Below the pieces are notes generated by a model. It saw only the letters and a list, made by a program, of their open reading frames with translations, ran no database searches and was not told where the DNA came from. The translations under genes and the position numbers were made by a program. From positions 1 through 64,000 of the forward strand of contig JADHPT010000003.1 in the NCBI GenBank assembly GCA_016778305.1: a stretch of DNA of 64,000 bases, written 5' to 3'. Positions 29,500 to 43,571 of this stretch are shown in pieces (positions within the stretch are counted from its first letter, which is position 1; each line of letters opens with the position of its first letter). The stretch comes from Candidatus Poseidonia sp. GTDB lineage: Archaea; Thermoplasmatota; Poseidoniia; Poseidoniales; Poseidoniaceae.

Positions 29500-30528
29500 A
29501 TGGCGGAGGCGGTTCTTTCCTTTCTGGACGTCCAACACCGTCACAAGATTCCCACTCCTCGGTGGTCAAAACCTTGGGCTCAACGCTTGGGACCGGGAAT
29601 TGTTGACCTTAACCTCAAGCTGTACAAAGGCTCGATTCTAGGTTTGGTGGGACCGAACGGAGCAGGGAAGACTACCCTGTTGCGCATGATGGCCGGTATC
29701 CTCCCGCTTCAAACAGGCTCGGTGATGCAACGCATTGGCAACGAAGAATGGACTCGAGTTGCCGATTTACGAACCTTGGTCGGTCACATGCCTGAACAGG
29801 TGAGGTGGCAAGGCAGAACTACGGTCAGGAATATTTTGCTTGAACTCGGAGATATGCGAGGGACGCAAACCAATCGCATCGACGCACTGCTCAACCTCGT
29901 CGGCCTTCAACAGCGTCAAGACGAACAGTTGGATAATCTCAGCCAGGGCATGCGTCAACGCCTTTCCATAGCAGCAGCATTGCTGGGGTCACCCAAGGTT
30001 CTGCTGCTGGATGAACCCTTCAACGGACTCGATCCAGTTGCTGCGCAAGCCTTCACTGAACTGATTCAACGACTTGCGAACAAGGGCGTTAGCATCGTCA
30101 TCTCGTCGCACATGGTTGCCCAATTAGGCGGATTCATCGACCGAATCGGCTTGCTCCATCGTGGCCAACTCCTTGATGAAGGGCCGTTAGAAGATGTCGA
30201 AACACGATTAGGGCTTAACGGCCGCTACATGATTTCTGGAACTGGGAAAGTGGACCTCAATCTGCGTCTGAAGGGCATTGACTTGGAACGAATCGAGGAG
30301 ACAACCAATGAAGACGGATGGAGTTTGACCTTTAGGGGAGACTCACAAGAGGTATTGCAGGCCTTGCTTTCAAACGACGTTGTTCTTTCCTCTTGGTCTC
30401 CTCTTGCACCCGATTTGGTTGAGTGGTTATGTGCCGCTACTGGAATGGATGTACGGGATATTTCGTTAGAAGTTGCCTCGTCTGCATTCTTGCCAATGCG
30501 GACCAAGGAGATGGGCGAAGATGAGTGA
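29500..30528 (+). CDS. ABC transporter ATP-binding protein
   Basis: GLVGPNGAGKTTLLRMMAG, LSQGMRQRLSIAAALLGSPKVLLLDEPFNGLDP, H-loop VISSHMV. Start MAEAVLSFLDV at 29500. Confidence 0.93.
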   Translation: MAEAVLSFLDVQHRHKIPTPRWSKPWAQRLGPGIVDLNLKLYKGSILGLVGPNGAGKTTLLRMMAGILPLQTGSVMQRIGNEEWTRVADLRTLVGHMPEQVRWQGRTTVRNILLELGDMRGTQTNRIDALLNLVGLQQRQDEQLDNLSQGMRQRLSIAAALLGSPKVLLLDEPFNGLDPVAAQAFTELIQRLANKGVSIVISSHMVAQLGGFIDRIGLLHRGQLLDEGPLEDVETRLGLNGRYMISGTGKVDLNLRLKGIDLERIEETTNEDGWSLTFRGDSQEVLQALLSNDVVLSSWSPLAPDLVEWLCAATGMDVRDISLEVASSAFLPMRTKEMGEDE

Positions 30529-31351
30529 TTTCAGACGAATCCGAAGCATGGCTGCCCGCATACGGCGTGAACGCCTCTTTGGCATCCGCATGAACATCAT
30601 GCTCCCCATTCTCCTCCTGTTCTTGCCGGGAATGGCGTGGGGTTTTTCTGACCCCAACATCATCTTGCCCGGTGGCCATCAGCCATCCACTGCGATGGAA
30701 GTCCTGTTCTATGCTTCTCTCGGTGTCGTATTTGGGGCCACCATGTGTGCTGTTTTGCTCTCATTTGACGGAGTGAGTCGAGATCGAGCAAGTGGCATGC
30801 TCGAAGTTCGACTTGCTCAACCAATGCCTCGTCAACATCAAGCGACTGCCTTGGTATTGGGTTATTTGCAAAGCATTCTGATACCGGTGTATGGACTCAT
30901 GGTATTGTGCCTCGTAATTGTACGCATCCGCATGGGCGAGTGGACAAGTCTTGAGGAGACCTTGGTGTACTTTGCTTCAACGGGACTCATTCTTCTGTGG
31001 TACACACTGTTCGCTCTCCTCGCCTCAACGACTGCGAAAGAACAGGGTACTGCAGTTGCCTTTGGAGTTGGTGTTTGGTTCTTTTTCACCTTCTTATGGG
31101 CGCTGGTGACGACCATGGTGGCCTATGCATCAGGTGTTGCGGTTGGTGAAGCTAATGACCCTGGATGGGTGGCTTTGGAGGGGGCGCTAGACCTGTTGTC
31201 ACCAAATGGCGTTTATCATCATCTTTTGGAAACACAACTTCCAAGCGTTGACAGAGGCGTCCCTATGTGGCAAACATGGGCTGCAGCAATCGCCTGGACA
31301 GTCCTGCCTTGGTGGGGGCTTCAACGGCGCATGGAAGCACTTGTACCTTGA
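30521..31351 (+). CDS. ABC-2 type transporter permease
   Basis: Six-TM-like hydrophobic pattern with conserved FDGVSRDRASGMLEVRLAQPMPR cytoplasmic segment; overlaps ATPase stop. Confidence 0.82.
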   Translation: MSDFRRIRSMAARIRRERLFGIRMNIMLPILLLFLPGMAWGFSDPNIILPGGHQPSTAMEVLFYASLGVVFGATMCAVLLSFDGVSRDRASGMLEVRLAQPMPRQHQATALVLGYLQSILIPVYGLMVLCLVIVRIRMGEWTSLEETLVYFASTGLILLWYTLFALLASTTAKEQGTAVAFGVGVWFFFTFLWALVTTMVAYASGVAVGEANDPGWVALEGALDLLSPNGVYHHLLETQLPSVDRGVPMWQTWAAAIAWTVLPWWGLQRRMEALVP

Positions 31352-31395
31352 GGAAAAAGGCAATTCTTCATGAAGGCGAAAGCCTACGCCTGTAT

Positions 31396-33357
31396 ATGAC
31401 ACGCCGCCCGCTCTCACTGCAAATCGCCTCGTTGGCACTCACGCTACTGATGGTTCTGGTCACAACATCACCTCTTATGACGCCCGTCTTGGATGAACAA
31501 TCAATCGTTCTCCCCACTGAAGGGCGCCAGGATGCACTCGACGTCGACTGCAGCGGATATTCATTTGAAGACCTCTTTGAATACGATTTCGCATTGTTCG
31601 AACTTGTTATTCTTGACGATTGGGCAACCGGCGATATGTTTGCAAATGCATGGGTCAACGGCTCCAACTCGGCTATCGTGCGCGACAACCTTGACGGTCT
31701 GTTCGAAGGTTTGCCCGGCGGCGATAACGATTGGATCAGCACTGATGAGCGTGATGCTGTTCGCAGTATTGGGCCAAAATGTATCGCTGATATGGAAACA
31801 CGACTTGGAATGCGTGAGGGCATCCCTCACTCGGGTGGCGTTGATTGGAATGATTTTGAATTCGTAGAAGATGGAATCGGACTGGATGAAGTCAACCTTG
31901 TTCCTGAAGGCCATCCTGATGCTCGCACCTGTACCAACTTTGGTGCTGAGCAAAGTTGCAAAGAAGTTCCTACTTCAACCACCGAGGATTTAGAAATCAG
32001 CCTTTTTGTTAACGATGGAGAAAATAACAATGTGCGATGGGACCAGTTGCCCAACAGTGGCTCGTCAAACTTCACGCTCGCCATGAACATCACCAATATG
32101 AGCGATGCCGCCCTTGTTGTGACCTTCCCTGTCCTACAGGGCCTACGGATGTACGATTTCCGAGTCACAGACAACAGTGCTGAAGGCGGATTAAACTGTG
32201 ATTACATCAACGAACCATCCTTCAAGTACCTCCCCGATGGGAGCCTTCAAGTGACACAATTGGTCAACTTTGACCGAACACAATGGGCCCTCGAGTGTGC
32301 GATGTTCATGGACTTCACCACCCAAATTCCCGAAACGAACGATTTCCCCATTTGGTCATCGACTGCACCTGCCAACGGCACGCGAATCGCCACCAGTGGT
32401 GCTGGGACAACGGTATTCACGCCAGCTGATGTGGGTAATGCATGGGCGAGTGATGACGACGGATGGTCGCTCGATTGTGTCTTTGATCAAGAAGGATGGT
32501 CGGTTTCAACCAACGTACTGGGCGATTTCCTCGTTGCTCAACCTGCGTCCTCATCGATGGCTGAGGCAACCTGTACTGTCGTTGACCCCTTGGGTGCTAC
32601 TGACGAAAATGATTCTCGTACGTGGACCTTTGGAACCCTCTTCACCGCTACTGGGACAGTGGATGATGACGGTGAAAACGCTCGTATTACCATCACTTCT
32701 TCTGGACTTGTGAGTGAATTTATCTTCACCCCCAGAGCCCTCCAAGACGGACAACTTGGCGGTTCCAATGATGCGGTCACCATCAGTTCAAGCGCACCTT
32801 CGGCGATTGCAATGAGCCTCACAGGCATTCGTCCAGGTTCATTTACCATCACGGGTGTAGCTGAAGCAACCAACATGATCGATTTCACGGTTGATATGGA
32901 TTTGGACCTCATTAAACCAAATTCTCCACCCGTCATCTCTGTTGCCGTCAATTTCAACGGAGAGAACGCCACCTGGGACGATAACCAGCAGAAGTTTGAG
33001 ATGTACGGTCTCGTGAACGACCCGGACCTCGAAGCGGTGAGCATGAGTTTGACAATTTGTGGCGCAATGTACCAAGGTTTTGTGATTGACAACATCAATT
33101 GGAATGTGGAAGTTTCAACGGCCATATGTATGGCAAACGGACTCACCGATTACGATGTGATCATCACGGCCACCGACGATTCTGGAGCATCAACACAGAT
33201 CACCGTTGGAATTCAAGATCCAATGAGCAATGACTTGCCGCTTCCCGCAAATCCAATTGATGATGGCAGCGATTCTTCTCTTCCATTCCCGTCCTTTTTG
33301 GCGACCTTAGCTATGCTCGGGGCTGCACTTATCCTCCGCTCTAAGAACGAAGAATAA
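31396..33357 (+). CDS. Secreted/surface protein with C-terminal sorting-like tail
   Basis: Signal peptide MTRRPLSLQIASLALTLLMVLVTTSPLM; C-terminal LPFPSFLATLAMLGAALILRSKNEE; start inferred at 31396. Confidence 0.7.
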   Translation: MTRRPLSLQIASLALTLLMVLVTTSPLMTPVLDEQSIVLPTEGRQDALDVDCSGYSFEDLFEYDFALFELVILDDWATGDMFANAWVNGSNSAIVRDNLDGLFEGLPGGDNDWISTDERDAVRSIGPKCIADMETRLGMREGIPHSGGVDWNDFEFVEDGIGLDEVNLVPEGHPDARTCTNFGAEQSCKEVPTSTTEDLEISLFVNDGENNNVRWDQLPNSGSSNFTLAMNITNMSDAALVVTFPVLQGLRMYDFRVTDNSAEGGLNCDYINEPSFKYLPDGSLQVTQLVNFDRTQWALECAMFMDFTTQIPETNDFPIWSSTAPANGTRIATSGAGTTVFTPADVGNAWASDDDGWSLDCVFDQEGWSVSTNVLGDFLVAQPASSSMAEATCTVVDPLGATDENDSRTWTFGTLFTATGTVDDDGENARITITSSGLVSEFIFTPRALQDGQLGGSNDAVTISSSAPSAIAMSLTGIRPGSFTITGVAEATNMIDFTVDMDLDLIKPNSPPVISVAVNFNGENATWDDNQQKFEMYGLVNDPDLEAVSMSLTICGAMYQGFVIDNINWNVEVSTAICMANGLTDYDVIITATDDSGASTQITVGIQDPMSNDLPLPANPIDDGSDSSLPFPSFLATLAMLGAALILRSKNEE

Positions 33358-33406
33358 ACCGACACAACCAAAAGGCAGCGCTCGCGGGGCAAATTTAGGG
33401 ATACGT

Positions 33407-34495
33407 ATGTTTACGGGCACTGTTGAGGCACGAAGCCACGAAGGTGGTCTTCTCGTCCATTTTGATGGGTCTTCACCAGCCCTTAATGCGATTGTAATTT
33501 TGGCAGAAGATGGCACCTACATCGGAAAGGTCGATGGTGTCATCGGAAATACCAACCACCCACTTGCTCACATTGGACACGTTGATCGCAAACTCGATTT
33601 GGACACCGTGATGGGTGCCCAAGTTGGCATTCGAGCGAAGAAGGCTCGTCCCGAACGAGAGCGCTCTAACGATCGAGACGACTCCCCACGACGTGATGAC
33701 CGAAGAGATAACCATCGTAGCGACCGCAACAATTCGGGCCGGGAACGTGGTTCATTCTCCCGACAAGACAGAGGGGGCCAACGAGGAAACCATTCCGACA
33801 ACCACGGTGATAACGACTGGGATTGTCCCAAGTGCAACAACTCTAATTTCGCACGACGAACCGTATGCAATCTATGTGAAGAACCCCGCCCGGGTGGAAC
33901 TGGGGGCGGTCAGCGCCATGGTCGAAGAAACGATTTCCAACGCCGAGATAGAAATAGCGGTGGTGGTCGTGAAACCTTCAACGATAACGATTGGACATGC
34001 CCTGAATGTAAGAATTCTAATTTCTCATTCCGTCAACAATGCAACCGTTGTGAAGCACCCCGCCCGGGAGGCGGTGGTGGACGATCAAATTCAGGTCCTT
34101 CGAGTGGAGGCTATCGTGACCGAAACGGTGGCGGAGGCCGTGACCGAGGATCGTCTGATCGAGACGGCGGTGGAGGCTATCGTGACCGAAACGGTGGCGG
34201 AGGCCGTGACCGAGGGTCGTCTGATCGAGGCGGCGGCGGAGGCTATCGTGACCGAAACGGTGGCGGAGGCCGTGACCGAGGATCGTCTGATCGAGGCGGC
34301 GGTGGAGGCTATCGTGACCGAAACGGTGGCGGAGGCCGTGACCGAGGATCGTCTGATCGAGGCGGCGGTGACCGCCGAGGCGGAGATCGCAGTAGTGATT
34401 ATCGCAAGGCCAAAGGAAAGCGCTCGGGCCACGCTCATAACCGCCCACCTCGTGATTTATTCCCACGCAAATTTGAACGTCAAGACGAGGACTGA
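33407..34495 (+). CDS. Gar1-like RNP protein with two RanBP2-type zinc fingers and RGG-rich repeat tail
   Basis: N-term GTVEARSHEGGLLVHFDGSSPALNAIVILAEDGTYIGKVDGVIGNTNHPLAHI (Gar1-like); WDCPKCNNSNFARRTVCNLC and WTCPECKNSNFSFRQQCNRC (WxCx2Cx3Nx6Cx2C); four YRDRNGGGGRDRGSSDR repeats. Confidence 0.75.
   Translation: MFTGTVEARSHEGGLLVHFDGSSPALNAIVILAEDGTYIGKVDGVIGNTNHPLAHIGHVDRKLDLDTVMGAQVGIRAKKARPERERSNDRDDSPRRDDRRDNHRSDRNNSGRERGSFSRQDRGGQRGNHSDNHGDNDWDCPKCNNSNFARRTVCNLCEEPRPGGTGGGQRHGRRNDFQRRDRNSGGGRETFNDNDWTCPECKNSNFSFRQQCNRCEAPRPGGGGGRSNSGPSSGGYRDRNGGGGRDRGSSDRDGGGGYRDRNGGGGRDRGSSDRGGGGGYRDRNGGGGRDRGSSDRGGGGGYRDRNGGGGRDRGSSDRGGGDRRGGDRSSDYRKAKGKRSGHAHNRPPRDLFPRKFERQDED
34112..34375 (+). repeat. 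In-frame tandem repeat, 4 copies of 66 bp (22 aa)
   Basis: Near-identical tatcgtgaccgaaacggtggcggaggccgtgaccgag(g)atcgtctgatcgag... units starting at 34112, 34178, 34244, 34310. Confidence 0.92.
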
Positions 34496-34509
34496 AGGAG
34501 TCGAGATAC

Positions 34510-35544
34510 TTGAGTGCTGAAACGCATTACTTGGACGCCCTTGAAGCCCTTGATGAAGGTCGGCGCGAAGATGCCAAGGTGGAAGCAAAGAAAGCAACCG
34601 ACGCTGATCCTGAACATCTTGAAGCATGGGGAGTCTACGTTGAGGCATGTCTGCCCCCAGCGGGTCAGCCGCCGTCAATGATTGAAGCCGCTCAAGCAAT
34701 TGCTGCAATTCGACGTATTATCGCCATTGACCCAATCCGAATGGACATGTGGGTTCGTGGGGGCCGAATTCTCGCTGATGAACTCGGCATGCTCCATGAC
34801 GCATTGCACTGGTGGCAAGATTGTCGCCAGCACGCTCCCGATGAAGTAACTCCAATCGTTGAGATGGCATCGATTCTCGCTGACATGGGTGAGTACAGCA
34901 AAGCCCAGGAACGTCTGCAGTCCATCTTGGATGAAAACATGGATGTCGGAATGACACAATTTCGTAAAATCAATTCCCTATTGCAACTCGTTCGTGCTGC
35001 AGCAACACAACAAGAAAAAGAGATCTTCCGCCCCTATGAAAAACACCATGATGGCTGGCAGGCTATTGGCCAGAAGATGGGTAAACCCCCGATGTCAGAG
35101 AATTTTATTTTCCTCATCACCACCGTCCCAGTTCTCCTTCTCGTGATCTACTTTTCATCACAATTTTCTTCCGGTGGATGGGCTCCGTTTTGTTTGAACA
35201 CCGTCGCTATCATGTTCATCGTTCTTCTTGGTATTCGGAATGCAAAGCGGTGGTTCCAAATCATCAACCGCCCGGCATTCAATCTCTTGCGTGCCATGAA
35301 CTTTGAAGCAGCAACGGGCTACACGGTGATACCTGAAGACATGCGAACTTCAGTTCTGTATGTGTACATCATGCAACGAAAGCCCCTCGCTTGGCAAGAG
35401 CGTACGCTGAAAGTCATTGAAAAGGGTTCGAACTTGCCAAAGAACTGGAAACTGCGACTCCCTGATTTTGATGCACACATCAATGAAGAAGCAGAGCAGG
35501 CTTTTTGGTCTGAAGAAGCGCTTGATGCATACGAAGAAGAATAA
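34510..35544 (+). CDS. TPR-containing protein with central TM hairpin
   Basis: MSAETHYLDALEALDEGRREDAKVEAKKATDADPEHLEAWGVYVEA (TPR); two TM segments FIFLITTVPVLLLVIYF, FCLNTVAIMFIVLLGI. Confidence 0.7.
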   Translation: MSAETHYLDALEALDEGRREDAKVEAKKATDADPEHLEAWGVYVEACLPPAGQPPSMIEAAQAIAAIRRIIAIDPIRMDMWVRGGRILADELGMLHDALHWWQDCRQHAPDEVTPIVEMASILADMGEYSKAQERLQSILDENMDVGMTQFRKINSLLQLVRAAATQQEKEIFRPYEKHHDGWQAIGQKMGKPPMSENFIFLITTVPVLLLVIYFSSQFSSGGWAPFCLNTVAIMFIVLLGIRNAKRWFQIINRPAFNLLRAMNFEAATGYTVIPEDMRTSVLYVYIMQRKPLAWQERTLKVIEKGSNLPKNWKLRLPDFDAHINEEAEQAFWSEEALDAYEEE

Positions 35545-36810
35545 TCACGTGCCTGCAGTGTAATCTTCAAGGTAGGCAATCTGTTCATCCGTAAGATCAT
35601 CGATTTCCAAGCCCATCGTTGCAAGTTTTGTGCGAGCAAGGTCTGCATCCTGCTGGCTGGAAATATCGTACACGATAGAATCCATCGAGGCTCCTTCTTG
35701 AGCAAGGCGTACCAGAGCGAGATATTGGTTGGCAAAGGACATATCCATTACTTCTGAAGGATGACCTTCAGCTGCTGCGAGGTTGACTAAACGGCCTTCA
35801 GCGAGTAAAAATATTTGATTTCCATTCGCAAGGGTAAATTCCTCATTATTTTCACGAATGCTTCGCTGACTGGTCGACAATGATTTGAGATCTTCAATGT
35901 TGATTTCACAGTCATAATGTCCTGTGTTGGCTACAATAGCCCCGTTTTTCATAGACTTGAAATGACGGCCTACGATTATGTCCTTGATTCCTGTTGCAGT
36001 GCAAAAGATGTCGCCCAATGATGCCGCTTCATCCATGGTCATGACGCGGAACCCGTCCATAACGGCTCGGAGTGCTGGAAGCGGATCGATTTCTGTCACG
36101 ATGACATTGGCGCCCATTCCCTTGGCACGCATGGCGACACCACGTCCACAGTGGCCGTAGCCAGCAACAACGATTGTTTTACCAGCAAGGAGAACGGATG
36201 TTGCTCGAAGGATTCCGTCCAGAGTGGATTGACCCGTGCCGTAGACATTGTCGAAATCCCATTTTGTTTCGGCATCGTTGACTGCAATAACAGGATAACG
36301 TAAGTCCCCTGCTTTGCCCATAGCACGCAAGCGATGTACGCCGGTGGTCGTCTCTTCAGTTCCACCGATGACGCCTTCGGCATATTCTGAGCGCTCCCCG
36401 TGTACACGTACGATGAGGTCTGCACCGTCATCGAGGGTCAAGGTCGGCTTGAATTCCAGAGTCTTGTCAATGCACCAGTAAAAGTCCTCTATGTTCTGTC
36501 CGTGCCAAGCATGGACCGAGTAGCCTTCGCTGGCCAGCCAAGCTGCAACATCGTCCTGAGTAGACAACGGGTTGCAGCCAGACCACGATATTTCAGCACC
36601 TGCGGCAGCAATGGTCTCGATCAATACTGCTGTTTCCTTGGTGACGTGAAGACATCCAGCCACACGCATCCCCTTCAGAGGTTGGGTCTTCATGGCTTCT
36701 TCTTTGAGTGCGTGAAGTACTGGCATGCGTGCTCGTGCCCAATCAACGCGGCGAGAACCTTGTGCTGCGAGGCTAATGTCGGCTACCGTGTAAAGATCGG
36801 TTTTGTCCAT
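35545..36810 (-). CDS. ahcY: Adenosylhomocysteinase
   Basis: AGCLHVTKETAVLIETIAAAGAEISWSGCNPLSTQDD, GTGQSTLDGILRAT, VVAGYGHCGRG, NTGHYDCEI. Confidence 0.95.
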   Translation of the reverse strand: MDKTDLYTVADISLAAQGSRRVDWARARMPVLHALKEEAMKTQPLKGMRVAGCLHVTKETAVLIETIAAAGAEISWSGCNPLSTQDDVAAWLASEGYSVHAWHGQNIEDFYWCIDKTLEFKPTLTLDDGADLIVRVHGERSEYAEGVIGGTEETTTGVHRLRAMGKAGDLRYPVIAVNDAETKWDFDNVYGTGQSTLDGILRATSVLLAGKTIVVAGYGHCGRGVAMRAKGMGANVIVTEIDPLPALRAVMDGFRVMTMDEAASLGDIFCTATGIKDIIVGRHFKSMKNGAIVANTGHYDCEINIEDLKSLSTSQRSIRENNEEFTLANGNQIFLLAEGRLVNLAAAEGHPSEVMDMSFANQYLALVRLAQEGASMDSIVYDISSQQDADLARTKLATMGLEIDDLTDEQIAYLEDYTAGT

Positions 36811-36887
36811 GAGCACCTCACCTAGGGGATGCTTATGAAGATGCGTATCGGTGCTTCCGCCACCGTGATCCGTCAGGACCTACGTGC

Positions 36888-39800
36888 CTATTGCTGGGAC
36901 TGTGCATACTGGATTGCATACTGTTGCGCATATGCTGCAGCTGTTGCTGCATCGTAACCCTGGCCAACGAATTGCTGGTAGTATTGCTCGTAAATCGCTT
37001 GATCAAAGCCGGCTGCGGCTGGTTGAGCGGCTGCGACCGGTTGAGCAGCGGCTGGTTGAGCAGCTGCACCACCGACATATTGCTGGGCAAAGGACCTCGC
37101 AGTTTCTTCAGGGTAGCCTTGAGCAATCAATTGTTGGACGTATTGTTCAGTTGGGTCCAAAGCGTCAGCTCCGAAGGCATTTTCCATACCAAAGGCGTCT
37201 TCCTTCTCAGATCCACTGCGCATGAACATGAGCGTAGCACCCACAATGATCACGAGAATCACAATTCCAATAATGAGCATCGTTGAATCGATGCCACCAG
37301 CATCACCTTGTGTGTCATCGATTGGATTCGAGTTATCTGTCCACAAACCAGTCGTTGGGTCATAGGACCAAGCACCGTTCCATTGACAGTCGCCATTGGC
37401 ATCAAGGATGAACTCTCCACCTGCTGCTTCTGCTTGGGGATCAATTTCAATTCCAGGACAAGCAGGGAGATTGATTTCAATCCACTTGATGGTGACCCAG
37501 CGCTCGTTCGGGTAGTCGCCTTCGTAATACTTGATGAAAACACGTTGTGATTTCGAGACGTTGGTGTAGAGGCTGTCGACGTTGAGAGTAATCTCAAAGC
37601 GGTCGTTATCACCCATGGCATCGCTCTTGCCCCAAAGACCCAATTCGCTCATGTTGTACTTCATGATCGAGGAAGCCGTGAAATCATCCTCAAAGAAGGC
37701 TGCTTCAACGTAAACCTCGCTGGTTTCAGCACCCGAGAGGACGGTCCCAGAAATGGTCAAGGTGTCATCTTCAAATTTGGAATTGTTCAACTGAACGTTA
37801 TCCCATTGAATTGCAGGTTCTTCATCACCAAAGCCTTCTGGTACGACAACGAAGTACATTCGGTGCTTTTCTGAGAACTTACCAGCGCTGTCATAGACAA
37901 CCAATTCAATGCGAATTTGATTTTCTGTGGTGCCTGTAGAGTCAACTGTCTGGTTCTTGAACTTGTACGACCATTGTCCGTTGCTCGCAGCTGTCTGAGT
38001 GAAGGTGTGACCGTCGAGATCGAAGGAATCATCACCGTACGGCGCATCGAAAAGAACCTTCCACTCATAACTTTCAATGCCGTTGCCTTCCAACGAATCT
38101 GCGTCAGAGGAATTGCTGGCATCGAAGTGAATCACGATTTCTGCATCATCTCCTTCACCTTCGAGGATGATTCGATGAATGTCCCATTCTGTATTGGATA
38201 CGGTTTTGGTTCCAATGAACTCAACATTGTCTTGATAGTCGGTTCGAATGTCAACCACAGCATCTGCTTCAGGTCGGAACTCGTCTGCATAAACATCGTT
38301 TGTTTCGACAGTGACCTCGATGGTTCGTGCGTGACCGTTAGCGTCGTGGAGCATCAAAGTGATGTGCCACTGCTCGCCTTGTGCGCAACCTGTTTGAGAC
38401 GCGAGGTCAGCCTTACAGAAGGTCATGGATGGTGAAGCGTCGCTGGTTTCTCCAAGCACACCAGAAGCCAAGGTGTTGCCGTCCCAGTTGGTTGGTCCGT
38501 CAATGACCCAATCGGTGATCATGGTCTCTGTGGTATCGGTTGTGAAACCAAAGTTCAGCGTAGCGTCGCTCTTCATGTAGCGTAGAGCGTACTTTCCTGT
38601 GCTCGGGTCAATGCCCGGGACATCGCCGTTGATGGTCAAATCAAGGCCGTTGCCAAGGGTGCCGAATCCGTTTGGATACGGTGTGACTTGGTAGGACAGG
38701 AGGTTACCCAGCATTGGGAAGGTAGAGCTGTCTGCACGCTCGGAGTGAGTGGCTACGTCAATGGTGGACACAATGAGGCCACCGGAGAAGTAACTGCAAA
38801 CACCGAGAACGGTGTCTTGGATGTCTTCGGTAGATCGGATCAATCGCTGGAAGTAACCGCCCTCTTCCATGTAACCATCACACGTGCCGGGCACGTTATT
38901 GGTACTGACAGATTTCGTGTTGAGGACGGCTTGTGCCACTCCTGAGTTGGCGTCGAACCCTTGGAAAGCGTTCACGTCGATGTTGTCCATGACTGGATGG
39001 TAGGGGTCAGCGAGATCCATGGTGGAGTACGTGACCTGTGTTTCTGCGGTATCACGGCTTTGAACGTCAAGGCCGAACGGTAGACGACCTGCAAGACCTT
39101 GGTCAAGACCGTAAATCTGACTTCCAAGCGGCCCCAAGTGGGCTTGGACTGTTCCGCCGGCTGACATGAAATTCTCAAGAACCGTACGACGTGCTGGCTC
39201 TCCGATGTATTGGTAATAGCCATCGCCACCGAATTGGGTGTCTTTCGCAACCAAGACATCTTGCCAGGGCAGAATGATCTTGTCGTAGTGAGTGAACCAA
39301 CCTGCGTCAAAGTAGGTGCTCCAATCGTTGATCTCAAATTGGGTATAACTCATGCCGAGGATAGCCAAATCTTGCTTGATAGCGGTTGTTCGAGACGATG
39401 TGTCTGAAAGAATAGCGACATCAACTTGGTTGGCAAAGGTAGCGTGGAAGTAACGAACGTTACCGGTTTCGCTACCGTCTGCAAGTTCACCGTAGAAACT
39501 GATGTTGTAGGTATGGCCGTCTTGCCATCCGTTCCATGGTGTAAAGGTGACGTCGGTCTTTTCTTGGTTTTCCAAAGTGACCGCAGGTCCAGAACTCACG
39601 ATGTGAGCTTGGCTACCGTCAGCCATGTCTGTGACTTCCATGTAGAAGAGATAATCTCCAGCGAGGACACCGTTGGTCGCTTGGAACTCCCACGAATGTG
39701 TCAATGCGCCGTCAATAGGAAGGACACAAGGCAATGTTTGGTCGCTGTGGCAGCTTAGTGTATCGGGTTTACCGATAGAGATGTCGACCGACTCAACGTT

Positions 39801-42800
39801 GAAAATCACGCGCTCGATGTTGTTGGCAGAAGAAATCTCATTGCTGTTGAACCAAGGCTTGCCCATGGTGGTATTGTCGAACACCGTCTTGATGTCCAGA
39901 CGATAGACGCCGGATACGAACTCGTGGCTTGCGATGGTACTCATTGCAGCGTCCTCTGCATCCACGTTGGTGCGTGAGTCAGTGTACGTAGCATCCTGAA
40001 TGAAGGTGTATTCCTGAAGGGAAATGTTGTTGATACCAACACCCTTGAAACCATCATTGATTCCGTTTCGTCCATCGTCATCGGATTGGAATTCGAAGTT
40101 AACGTCCACGGTTGAACCTTGGAGCGACATACACTCCGTTAGCCACTGGCTAGAATCTGATGAAGAACGGTTCTGAATGTACAAGTGAGTCAAGTCAATG
40201 CTTGTAGTCTTAACAAGACCGTCGGTGTTGAAGAAGACGTTGTAGTTACTTGTTCCTTCTGAATTCGAGGCGTCTCCAATGAAGTCCAATTCTGTTTGGT
40301 CAATGGATTCTGTTGCGTTCACGATGCCGTTGCCGTCATCGTCGTTTTGACAGGTTCCATCCTCGTTGTAGTCGTTCCATTGAGCATATACCAAACCTGT
40401 GTAATTGGCTCCATCTTTGAGCCAATCCAAGGTCATCACAGCGTAATCGCTGGGGTCAATCTCGCCGTCCTGATCGGTGGTGTAGAACGTATCAGCATAA
40501 TACTCGAAGTTAAGCGAAACGAAGTCCCCAGCCATTGATGTCAAGTCGATATCTGGAATGACCAGTGTTTCATTGGCCCAAGCGTCATCGTAACCGTTGG
40601 TTGATGTGTCGCATGGGTGGCCGAACCAGTAAGCGTTGTTGTTGAAGATCTTGCTCGAACAGGTGTTCTCGTTGTAGATAGCTCCCTTCGGTTGCAATCC
40701 GTCGGTCTTTTCGGAGTAGCGGTAACCTTGGCTACCACCTTCAAAGGATTCCTCACAAACTGCAGATGGAGTACCACAGTACACGTCGGATGGTGTTGCG
40801 GAGTAAACCGTTGCTTCAATGTCGAAGTCGACCGGGGTGTTACCGTAGTTGTTGGTGGTCACACCGATGTCAAAGATACCTTCTGCGTACAGTCCACCGG
40901 GCTTGAAGAAGTCAATACTTTCGACGGTAGGGTCGTAGAGATTGAACGGCGTAACATAGCCGACTGCATCATCGTTGATGGGTTGCTCATCCCACGTGTT
41001 GCTGGACAACGTCGCAGAAATGCGGTAGGTCGTGTCGTTGAGCATATTGGCTTGAATTGAAGTGGTGTATTCTTGTCCAGGTTGCAGGTTGGACAATGGA
41101 CCAATGGTGGCCGATTGAACCTGTGGATTGGGCAGGAAGGCCGTGTTCTGCTTCCAAATGGAGAGGTTGTCAACGGCGAAACCGTCTCGTCCACTCCATC
41201 GGCTTTCGTTGTCATCAGAAGTTGAGCCTTCGAATCCTGTTCGGAGGCGGAAGCGGATATCAACGGTTTCGTCAGCCCACGGAGAGAGGTCAAAGACACC
41301 AAGGTCATCTTCGGTAAAGTTGTCCCATCCATAGTAAGTTCCTGAGCTGTAGAGGCCGTAGTAAACGATGTTTTCTGGGGCTGCACCCCATGCGTTCATC
41401 TTGAACATACGGTCGTTGTCAAAGCCTCCCCACATCGAAGCACCGGAGGCGCAAGCACCTTCAATTGCTGCGAGTTGTGGGCAACCAATGAGATTCCATC
41501 CTGATTCATCACTGCCAACCTCGACGATAGCGAGGTCGTCCCAAACGTCACCAACAATGAAGCCGGTACCGTCAGAACTACCAAGAGCACCCAATCCGAG
41601 GTGACGGAATAATTCCACGCTCATGAAAGCACGGTCTGCACCGGTGAGATCCACGTCATTGAGAACCATGGCGTCATCCCAGTTCTTTCCGTAGCCGCTC
41701 CATGTGTCGCCAGAGGAATTGGTTTGCATGTTTCCAGCCCACATAAAGTTGGACGGATTAAGATAGTTCGCAGAAACGTTAGCATCGTTATTACCGCCGC
41801 CTGTTGCACCTGTTGATTGATTGGTTTCTAGATGCCAGTTGGTGGCACCATCGACGTACTCTTCAAAGGTCCAAGAACATCCTGAGCCGCAGCCAGTCTT
41901 GACTTCGGGGCTATCCCAATCGTTGGAGTAGACGGTGTTGTTGGTCGAGTTTGCTTCGTCAACAATCTTGAGTTCAACGTCCAAGTCTGCCGTTTGTCCA
42001 TTTAAGGTATCCATTCCGGTATTGGTAACGGTGACGTTGATGGTACGTGTTCCTTCTCCTACAAGGCCGAAGAAACGATCGGTTGGTGCTATGTCAAGGT
42101 CGGTTACGGCCAAGTCTTTGTTGTCCATCTCAACGATGGTCAATGTATCATATTGACCCTCCCAGCCGAAGTTGTCTCGCCAACCACCGAAATTGTAGTT
42201 GGTGTGGCCAACAGCGAGGTCGGGAGCTGAGGTGGATGCACCTTGGAGCTGCCCAATAGCTACAGCCGATGGTCTCCGTCCTGCCTCGTATGAGAGCGGG
42301 CTCACGTGGCCGCCATTGCCGTCAGAGAGCGTGACTTGCACGGTCGTGGGGTAGTTCAGCCAGAAGTTGGACGTACTGCCACCAGCAGAGTCGGTGGTAT
42401 TCTGTTGGTAAGCGATGGTTGGGTTCACGAAGTCAGGTTCACCGTCGCCGTTGAGATCTGATACTGCAATGGTCCACGAAATGTAAGGACCGAAATATGC
42501 ATATTGAGAGTTCCCAAATGTACCTTGAGCGGTGGTTTGCTTGAATGTGATGTTCTCCACGCCGCCGTCCATAATAGCGATCGTGTCAACATATCCGTTA
42601 CCGCCAATGTCTGCAATCGAGAAATCTTCAGTCGAGATTGCACCCATGTTGATAACGGCAGTATTTGCTTGGTTGGTACCATACGAATAGGATACTGGAT
42701 AATTCTGAGTCACGCAATCAAATTCAATGACGGTGATGTTGTCGTTGTTACCCGGGTTGGTGGTTTGTCCAGTCGTATAGTCCAAACCTTCGCCTCGAAG

Positions 42801-43571
42801 GAGGAAAATATCATCGTCGGTACAGGAGCCTTGTAGTCCAGTTTGTGTTTCGCCAAAGTCACCGACCTCAATAGATCGGTAGGAATTTGATTGTGATGAG
42901 CCGAGTGTTGTCACCAGGCCGGTGGTAGCGGACGTGATCGGGCTGCGGTAGGTCACGACTCGTTGGGTGGTGATGTCAGCAAGGAGGTCAAGAGCGTAGA
43001 TATCGTCGTTGCCATCTTGGTCAGCATCACCAACTGCAAGGTCCCAGACCCAAAAGTGAGTGAAACGCTCGCCGATTGAAAAGTCCTTGTTGCTGCATCC
43101 ACCGTTCTCAATGATGGTGATGTTACCTGGCTCACCAGCTGGCGTACCTTGGTCGGAGGTCTTGAAGGGATTATTTTTCTGATAGATGACGATATCGGGT
43201 GCGTTGTCGCCTGTGAATTCACCGACTTCGACAAATTCGACGTTCGCAAATTCATCCCAGTCTGCGTTACGGCTTTGATTGCCAGCAACCCAAATGTCTT
43301 GGCGTTCGCTGAAATCACCGTTTCCGTCGTTCCACAAGATGCTCATGGAATGCGTTCCGTCTGTTGCTACTGCCAAATCATTGTGGCCGTCGCAGTTGAA
43401 ATCGCCGATGGCGATGTCGGATGGGTCACGGTTCGTGGTGTAGGTACGGGCCACGGACGCACTCGAGGTGGCGGCCAAAGCAACGGTGGTGCTGAGCAGC
43501 ATTATCGTGGTGATGAAAATACTGCGGATTCGGGCTTTAGAGAGGTCTGTTTGAGATAGCATTGACATCAC
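36888..43571 (-). CDS. Giant (≈2220 aa) type I surface protein: FG-GAP/VCBS-like N-terminus, CARDB-like repeats, C-terminal TM and short cytoplasmic tail
   Basis: Signal-like hydrophobic N-terminus; SDIAIGDFNCDGHNDLAVATDGT and similar FG-GAP repeats; AVTDLDIAPTDRFFGLVGEGTRTINVTVTNTGMDTLNG (CARDB-like); TM STMLIIGIVILVIIVGATLMFM near the C-terminus. Confidence 0.85.
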   Translation of the reverse strand: MMSMLSQTDLSKARIRSIFITTIMLLSTTVALAATSSASVARTYTTNRDPSDIAIGDFNCDGHNDLAVATDGTHSMSILWNDGNGDFSERQDIWVAGNQSRNADWDEFANVEFVEVGEFTGDNAPDIVIYQKNNPFKTSDQGTPAGEPGNITIIENGGCSNKDFSIGERFTHFWVWDLAVGDADQDGNDDIYALDLLADITTQRVVTYRSPITSATTGLVTTLGSSQSNSYRSIEVGDFGETQTGLQGSCTDDDIFLLRGEGLDYTTGQTTNPGNNDNITVIEFDCVTQNYPVSYSYGTNQANTAVINMGAISTEDFSIADIGGNGYVDTIAIMDGGVENITFKQTTAQGTFGNSQYAYFGPYISWTIAVSDLNGDGEPDFVNPTIAYQQNTTDSAGGSTSNFWLNYPTTVQVTLSDGNGGHVSPLSYEAGRRPSAVAIGQLQGASTSAPDLAVGHTNYNFGGWRDNFGWEGQYDTLTIVEMDNKDLAVTDLDIAPTDRFFGLVGEGTRTINVTVTNTGMDTLNGQTADLDVELKIVDEANSTNNTVYSNDWDSPEVKTGCGSGCSWTFEEYVDGATNWHLETNQSTGATGGGNNDANVSANYLNPSNFMWAGNMQTNSSGDTWSGYGKNWDDAMVLNDVDLTGADRAFMSVELFRHLGLGALGSSDGTGFIVGDVWDDLAIVEVGSDESGWNLIGCPQLAAIEGACASGASMWGGFDNDRMFKMNAWGAAPENIVYYGLYSSGTYYGWDNFTEDDLGVFDLSPWADETVDIRFRLRTGFEGSTSDDNESRWSGRDGFAVDNLSIWKQNTAFLPNPQVQSATIGPLSNLQPGQEYTTSIQANMLNDTTYRISATLSSNTWDEQPINDDAVGYVTPFNLYDPTVESIDFFKPGGLYAEGIFDIGVTTNNYGNTPVDFDIEATVYSATPSDVYCGTPSAVCEESFEGGSQGYRYSEKTDGLQPKGAIYNENTCSSKIFNNNAYWFGHPCDTSTNGYDDAWANETLVIPDIDLTSMAGDFVSLNFEYYADTFYTTDQDGEIDPSDYAVMTLDWLKDGANYTGLVYAQWNDYNEDGTCQNDDDGNGIVNATESIDQTELDFIGDASNSEGTSNYNVFFNTDGLVKTTSIDLTHLYIQNRSSSDSSQWLTECMSLQGSTVDVNFEFQSDDDGRNGINDGFKGVGINNISLQEYTFIQDATYTDSRTNVDAEDAAMSTIASHEFVSGVYRLDIKTVFDNTTMGKPWFNSNEISSANNIERVIFNVESVDISIGKPDTLSCHSDQTLPCVLPIDGALTHSWEFQATNGVLAGDYLFYMEVTDMADGSQAHIVSSGPAVTLENQEKTDVTFTPWNGWQDGHTYNISFYGELADGSETGNVRYFHATFANQVDVAILSDTSSRTTAIKQDLAILGMSYTQFEINDWSTYFDAGWFTHYDKIILPWQDVLVAKDTQFGGDGYYQYIGEPARRTVLENFMSAGGTVQAHLGPLGSQIYGLDQGLAGRLPFGLDVQSRDTAETQVTYSTMDLADPYHPVMDNIDVNAFQGFDANSGVAQAVLNTKSVSTNNVPGTCDGYMEEGGYFQRLIRSTEDIQDTVLGVCSYFSGGLIVSTIDVATHSERADSSTFPMLGNLLSYQVTPYPNGFGTLGNGLDLTINGDVPGIDPSTGKYALRYMKSDATLNFGFTTDTTETMITDWVIDGPTNWDGNTLASGVLGETSDASPSMTFCKADLASQTGCAQGEQWHITLMLHDANGHARTIEVTVETNDVYADEFRPEADAVVDIRTDYQDNVEFIGTKTVSNTEWDIHRIILEGEGDDAEIVIHFDASNSSDADSLEGNGIESYEWKVLFDAPYGDDSFDLDGHTFTQTAASNGQWSYKFKNQTVDSTGTTENQIRIELVVYDSAGKFSEKHRMYFVVVPEGFGDEEPAIQWDNVQLNNSKFEDDTLTISGTVLSGAETSEVYVEAAFFEDDFTASSIMKYNMSELGLWGKSDAMGDNDRFEITLNVDSLYTNVSKSQRVFIKYYEGDYPNERWVTIKWIEINLPACPGIEIDPQAEAAGGEFILDANGDCQWNGAWSYDPTTGLWTDNSNPIDDTQGDAGGIDSTMLIIGIVILVIIVGATLMFMRSGSEKEDAFGMENAFGADALDPTEQYVQQLIAQGYPEETARSFAQQYVGGAAAQPAAAQPVAAAQPAAAGFDQAIYEQYYQQFVGQGYDAATAAAYAQQYAIQYAQSQQ

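Follow-up and report, generated by a model that had tools for sequence, protein, structure and literature searches.

The locus at positions 33407-34495 of the Candidatus Poseidonia DNA analysed here, a stretch of 64,000 nucleotides referred to as the window, raises the question of whether an archaeon may carry a Gar1 protein extended by RNA-binding modules. Archaeal Gar1 proteins are described in a review as being without the glycine/arginine-rich (GAR) regions of eukaryotes (PMC7991803). The ORF (plus strand, ATG start) encodes 362 residues, and its translation matches base for base that given in the original prediction, which described a Gar1-like core fused to two RanBP2-type zinc fingers and a repetitive tail. 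Two ORFs in other frames, one on the plus strand (33615-34520, 301 residues) and one on the minus strand (34017-34466, 149 residues), probably arise from the repeat array and do not represent genes. Rfam RNAs were not found near gar1, and tRNAs were not found within the window.

Residues 1-80 (33407-33646), predicted to form the beta-barrel with which Gar1 docks on Cbf5 in solved structures, almost certainly constitute a genuine Gar1 core, as indicated by profile comparisons and a structural model. As a single sequence, the protein scores 18.2 bits against the Pfam Gar1 family PF04410, below the curated cut-off of 29.3. The NCBIfam match to Gar1 is also sub-threshold, and a single-sequence PDB search with the core retrieved designed ankyrins alone, at E 0.25 or worse. 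Because the PF04410 score was below the cut-off, a family alignment of the core was built from homologues in both Poseidoniales families. In a PDB profile search with this alignment, Gar1 of P. furiosus occupies places 1-4 (E 0.0017-0.0056). The order-wide profile was also aligned by hhalign to Gar1 of other Thermoplasmatota (30 loci identified by PF04410), with a probability of 97.5% over 78 columns (P 5e-12). The AlphaFold (AF2) model of the domain has a pLDDT of 90, and the 13 structures that Foldseek ranks first for it are without exception Gar1 or Naf1, headed by the P. furiosus Gar1 structures 2EY4 and 2HVY (prob 1.00, TM 0.83-0.86). The core features the key G/P/L/V/G pattern shared with archaeal Gar1. 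Residues 1-80, the region in which the original prediction had placed a Gar1 core and which it had beforehand named as the place where a profile or fold comparison could overturn it, thus match the Gar1 fold. Naf1 (2V3M), which likewise combines a Gar1-like domain with additional regions, was rejected as an identity, as it falls behind Gar1 in the fold search (E 0.07 vs 3e-4); moreover, a separate Gar1 would be expected beside Naf1, and none was found in this genome, estimated at 94.4% completeness.

The presence of another canonical gar1 in the genome would have suggested that the N-terminal domain belongs to a different family. The core profile, however, matches this locus alone, and no second Gar1-like gene was found in the genome, which is estimated to be 94.4% complete. 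Genes for cbf5, the product of which contains the GHGGTLDP motif, nop10 and two L7Ae-family proteins are located elsewhere in the same genome. The proposal of an H/ACA-type RNP factor is therefore sustained by the Gar1 core, the sole copy and the presence of these partners. Three MAGs of the genus (G010, G016 and G023) carry two or three distinct Gar1 copies, and are possibly mixed-strain bins. A search for fibrillarin (PF01269) at E 0.001 found nothing in this genome (94.4% complete), whereas four control archaea scored over the cut-off; the box C/D machinery may be absent, too divergent or encoded in a part that was not assembled. We also considered whether the fingers assist Cbf5 alone in tRNA Psi55 formation. 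This role is weakened by Pus10, which has a match in 37 of 39 relatives and scores over the cut-off in 36 of them. In the window's genus (G000:C5:14117-15622 and relatives), Pus10 appears as two profile pieces within a single frame of ~600 codons, as opposed to ~490 codons in the other family and a profile length of 402, which suggests lineage-specific insertions.

Both fingers noted originally, with the exact pattern W-x-C-x2-C-x3-N-x6-C-x2-C at 33818-33877 and 33992-34051, were confirmed. PF00641 matches the protein over the cut-off (59.7 bits vs 27) in two stretches, and the fingers contain the four cysteines. Finger 1 (33815-33895, DWDCPKCNNSNFARRTVCNLCEEPRP; 38 bits) is of the ZRANB2/TAF15-like FARR type, and its best PDB match is ZRANB2 (E 2e-6). 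Finger 2 (33989-34069, DWTCPECKNSNFSFRQQCNRCEAPRP; 37.4 bits) is of the FUS-like FSFR type, and its best PDB match is FUS (E 1e-7). Among 110 distinct fingers, the RNA-contact positions, in ZRANB2 numbering, are D68 (100%), N76 (99%), an aromatic residue at 79 (100%), R82 (100%) and N86 (99%), while neighbouring positions vary. Fingers featuring D4, N14, W17 and N24, a set that we mapped ourselves onto the ZRANB2-numbered positions, bind single-stranded GGU or GGN RNA with sub-micromolar to micromolar KD (PMC6384913). Judging from these essentially invariant contact residues, the fingers fit the GGU-binding class of ZRANB2 and FUS. Finger 2 of the window differs from that of a relative (L070) by 8 synonymous and 0 non-synonymous changes, and dN is far below dS in the core, the fingers and the C-terminus. 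The fingers may derive from a eukaryotic donor or may have arisen locally, the comparison resting on ~26 residues. No viral relative was confirmed in IMG/VR. A weak match within the same genome (C23:31167, 10.8 bits) was left out.

The fingers are embedded in linkers of biased composition. The first, predicted to be disordered (33647-33814), is rich in R, D, N, S and G, in line with tail composition throughout the order, and the second (33896-33988) is G/R-rich. Downstream of finger 2, all four predicted YRDRNGGGGRDRGSSDR units were found; at the DNA level, they correspond to a 66-bp tandem array (34104-34370, 4.0 copies, 97% matches) encoding the G/R/D repeat tail. The label "RGG-type" given to this tail holds in that the region is G/R-rich, but it is a loose one: the whole protein contains 5 RGG and 11 RG in 362 residues, the density of RGG in the tail is 2.1 per 100 residues, and the tail is a nearly charge-balanced mixture of G, R, D, N and S. 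Arginine accounts for 22%, aspartate for 14% and glycine for 26% of the tail, the net charge is +0.06 per residue, hydrophobic residues are almost absent, and Y+F amount to about 4%. Relatives are richer in RG, with 6-8 per 100 tail residues, and eukaryotic nucleolar GAR domains contain >10 RGG (PMC9957100). On sequence grounds, the tail is best described as a loose relative of RGG domains and not as a dense RGG array. Repeat units vary between relatives while composition is preserved, and G/R-rich tails are retained in both families, even where fingers are absent. The protein ends in a basic C-terminal block overlooked in the original prediction (about 34385-34492, RKAKGKRSGHAHNRPPRD... to ...RKAKGKRSGHAHNRPPRDLFPRKFERQDED), which is under purifying selection. 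This block is kept in the window's family, the Poseidoniaceae, where it follows the pattern (R/K)(A/S)(K/R)GK-x-x-GHAHN-x-x-P (L070-L143); the second family has a different basic end. The block could possibly serve as a docking motif for a partner.

Orthologues arranged in the same way are found throughout the Poseidoniales (Marine Group II). The core profile matches 279 of 319 Poseidoniales genomes, nearly always once, and all 22 genera. Most of these genomes are incomplete MAGs, and the survey covers the phylum Thermoplasmatota. In the window's family, the 40 proteins recovered in full range from 260 to 532 residues and carry one to four fingers. Finger counts are lower bounds overall, because the repeats cause many contigs to break within gar1. 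Contigs of many MAGs of the order stop inside the gene, evidently on account of its repeats (e.g., L004, L005, L022, L023, L103 and L104); gar1 is a place where assemblies break recurrently, and it would be under-annotated. In the second family, some genera have one to three fingers, whereas Gar1 in genera g9 and g13 has a basic G/R tail and no finger. As fingers occur in both families, their presence in the common ancestor followed by later loss is the simplest reading of this distribution, drawn here from occurrence rather than from a tree. The conserved gene neighbourhood argues for orthology. Throughout the order, gar1 is preceded by genes for an ABC permease and a large membrane-anchored protein (600-700 residues), and followed by TPR and SAHH-like genes. 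In the window, this syntenic block spans 30473-36816; the TPR-repeat gene (34510-35544, plus strand) is the immediate downstream neighbour, and the adenosylhomocysteinase-like gene lies on the opposite strand. Further on, 36888-43571 (minus strand) encodes a secreted-looking protein of 2227 residues, in which an FG-GAP/VCBS-like N-terminus, a C-terminal membrane anchor and a subsequent low-complexity A/Q/Y tail were recognised by eye.

RanBP2 fingers over the cut-off are essentially confined to this order in our sample of 390 Thermoplasmatota genomes. Re-examination of 13 genomes outside the order left one match over the cut-off, an unrelated membrane protein. A candidate finger relative in G322 proved to be a Pro-rich membrane protein with a generic zinc ribbon at its end, and the other weak RanBP2 matches examined in the phylum are ordinary zinc ribbons, not counted as relatives. 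Elsewhere in the phylum, Gar1 frames are mostly 60-140 residues long (68-140 codons), with a few longer open frames; the 30 proteins read in detail have 62-124 residues, and no comparable finger was found in Gar1 there. These lengths, together with PMC7991803, bear out the earlier statement that typical archaeal Gar1 is compact.

The protein shares features with several known systems and differs from each. It shares with canonical archaeal Gar1 (2EY4 and 2HVY of P. furiosus; other Thermoplasmatota) the core fold, the G/P/L/V/G pattern, the single copy and the Cbf5, Nop10 and L7Ae-family partners. Those proteins end in a short basic stretch and lack fingers, whereas this one, at 362 residues, carries a G/R/D repeat tail in addition to its two fingers. 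Eukaryotic GAR1 (yeast and human; 3U28 and 7BGB) similarly combines the core with a long, disordered glycine/arginine-rich extension, but has RGG domains at both ends and no zinc fingers (PMC7991803, PMC9957100); here, the extension is exclusively C-terminal, D-rich and bears RanBP2 fingers. The FET proteins (FUS, EWS and TAF15) and ZRANB2 likewise have RanBP2 fingers set in R/G-rich disorder; theirs bind RNA, and the contact residues are shared. Finger spacing is CX4C in FUS and CX2C in both ZRANB2 finger 2 and the window protein. FET proteins have no Gar1 domain, and possess an RRM and a prion-like domain. Membership of this group was rejected, as no RRM was detected by Pfam in the window protein; the only matches there were to the fingers, weakly to Gar1 and, as noise below threshold, to zinc ribbons.

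The protein is probably an H/ACA pseudouridylation subunit to which a GGU-preferring single-stranded RNA tether has been added. The Gar1 core is known to control the thumb loop of Cbf5 and product release (PMC7991803). By analogy, the Poseidoniales core would sit on Cbf5 and, through the thumb loop, govern catalysis as well as the release of product. Two fingers (one to four in relatives) would reach out from the particle on flexible G/R-rich linkers and bind single-stranded RNA containing GGU or GGN, thereby tethering the particle to a substrate or guide RNA, such as pre-rRNA. Arginine-rich linkers and the basic C-terminus would supply non-specific RNA affinity. The particle would be expected to capture its substrate more strongly or release it more slowly, an effect akin to that of the yeast Gar1 RGG domains. 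Those domains influence the conformation and turnover of the RNP, which suggests that they touch the substrate RNA (PMC8096250). We consider this tethering mechanism reasonably likely. The extension would have arisen in Poseidoniales and been kept by selection, independently, as far as the evidence goes, of eukaryotic GAR domains. The Gar1 core alone suffices for essential functions in yeast, including growth (PMC7991803), and the Poseidoniales tail may therefore be accessory. Similarly, the finger-less Gar1 of g9 and g13 indicates that fingers are dispensable over evolutionary time.

Other explanations account for parts of these data. Repeats break many assemblies here, and several contigs end inside gar1, as might be expected if the architecture were an assembly or binning artefact, or two genes fused by sequencing error. 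Independent genomes already refute this: the same architecture occurs in the single-chromosome MG-II assembly CM001443.1 (L115; 302 residues, two fingers), in AH-273-O19 (L096; three fingers), the record of which is not labelled as a MAG, and in independent MAGs, dozens of them, that share the gene order. Nor is the architecture due to chance, given that its parts recur in this order in orthologues and that dN is low relative to dS. The tail might instead be a neutral low-complexity extension driven by slippage, with little function beside a Gar1 core that alone matters. The array is indeed a recent minisatellite, close relatives differ in repeat units, and yeast grows on the Gar1 core (PMC7991803), but dN/dS well below 1 in the fingers and C-terminal block, and the persistence of G/R-rich tails in both families, also without fingers, make this account unlikely. 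It is slightly harder still to regard the fingers as protein-binding modules (NZF or Ran-type) recruiting another factor to the H/ACA RNP. PF00641 also takes in ubiquitin- and Ran-binding fingers, and RNF31 and Nup153 are among the weaker matches; however, these score E 3e-5 to 0.1, against 2e-6 for ZRANB2 (finger 1) and 1e-7 for FUS (finger 2), and the five RNA-contact positions are invariant (99-100%) in the 110 fingers.

The protein might also moonlight, with the extension acting beyond H/ACA RNPs as a FUS/TAF15-like RNA condensate scaffold or a general RNA chaperone, and the core linking it to ribosome assembly sites. The order of finger and G/R-rich repeats recalls FUS and TAF15, two to four fingers confer multivalency in most relatives, and the tail is R-rich, poor in hydrophobic residues and part of long proteins (260-532 residues in total), in which composition outlasts changes in the repeat units. 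The few aromatic residues (Y+F about 4%), the high D content and the near balance of charge (+0.06 per residue) differ from the Y/R-rich sticker pattern of FUS, and we regard a moonlighting role of this kind as doubtful. A broader version is more speculative: the whole order would have come independently to a multivalent, FUS-like Gar1, and through it to a nucleolus-like condensate in which pre-rRNA and H/ACA particles are brought together in a prokaryote. Such a condensate might offset missing sRNP machinery, an idea prompted by the failure to match fibrillarin in this genome; the high D content and scarcity of aromatic residues call for caution on condensates in general.

We found no report of a Gar1 protein with RanBP2 fingers in the open literature, which does not exclude subscription papers. 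Poseidoniales, an abundant marine order, break the "bare core" rule for archaeal Gar1 and have added predicted RNA-binding fingers, a feature that eukaryotic Gar1 does not possess. Eukaryote-like RNP features are also seen here in a lineage that is no close relative of eukaryotes. The finger-bearing, finger-less and repeat-length variants found within this one order offer a natural comparison for the role of disordered G/R-rich extensions in H/ACA RNPs.
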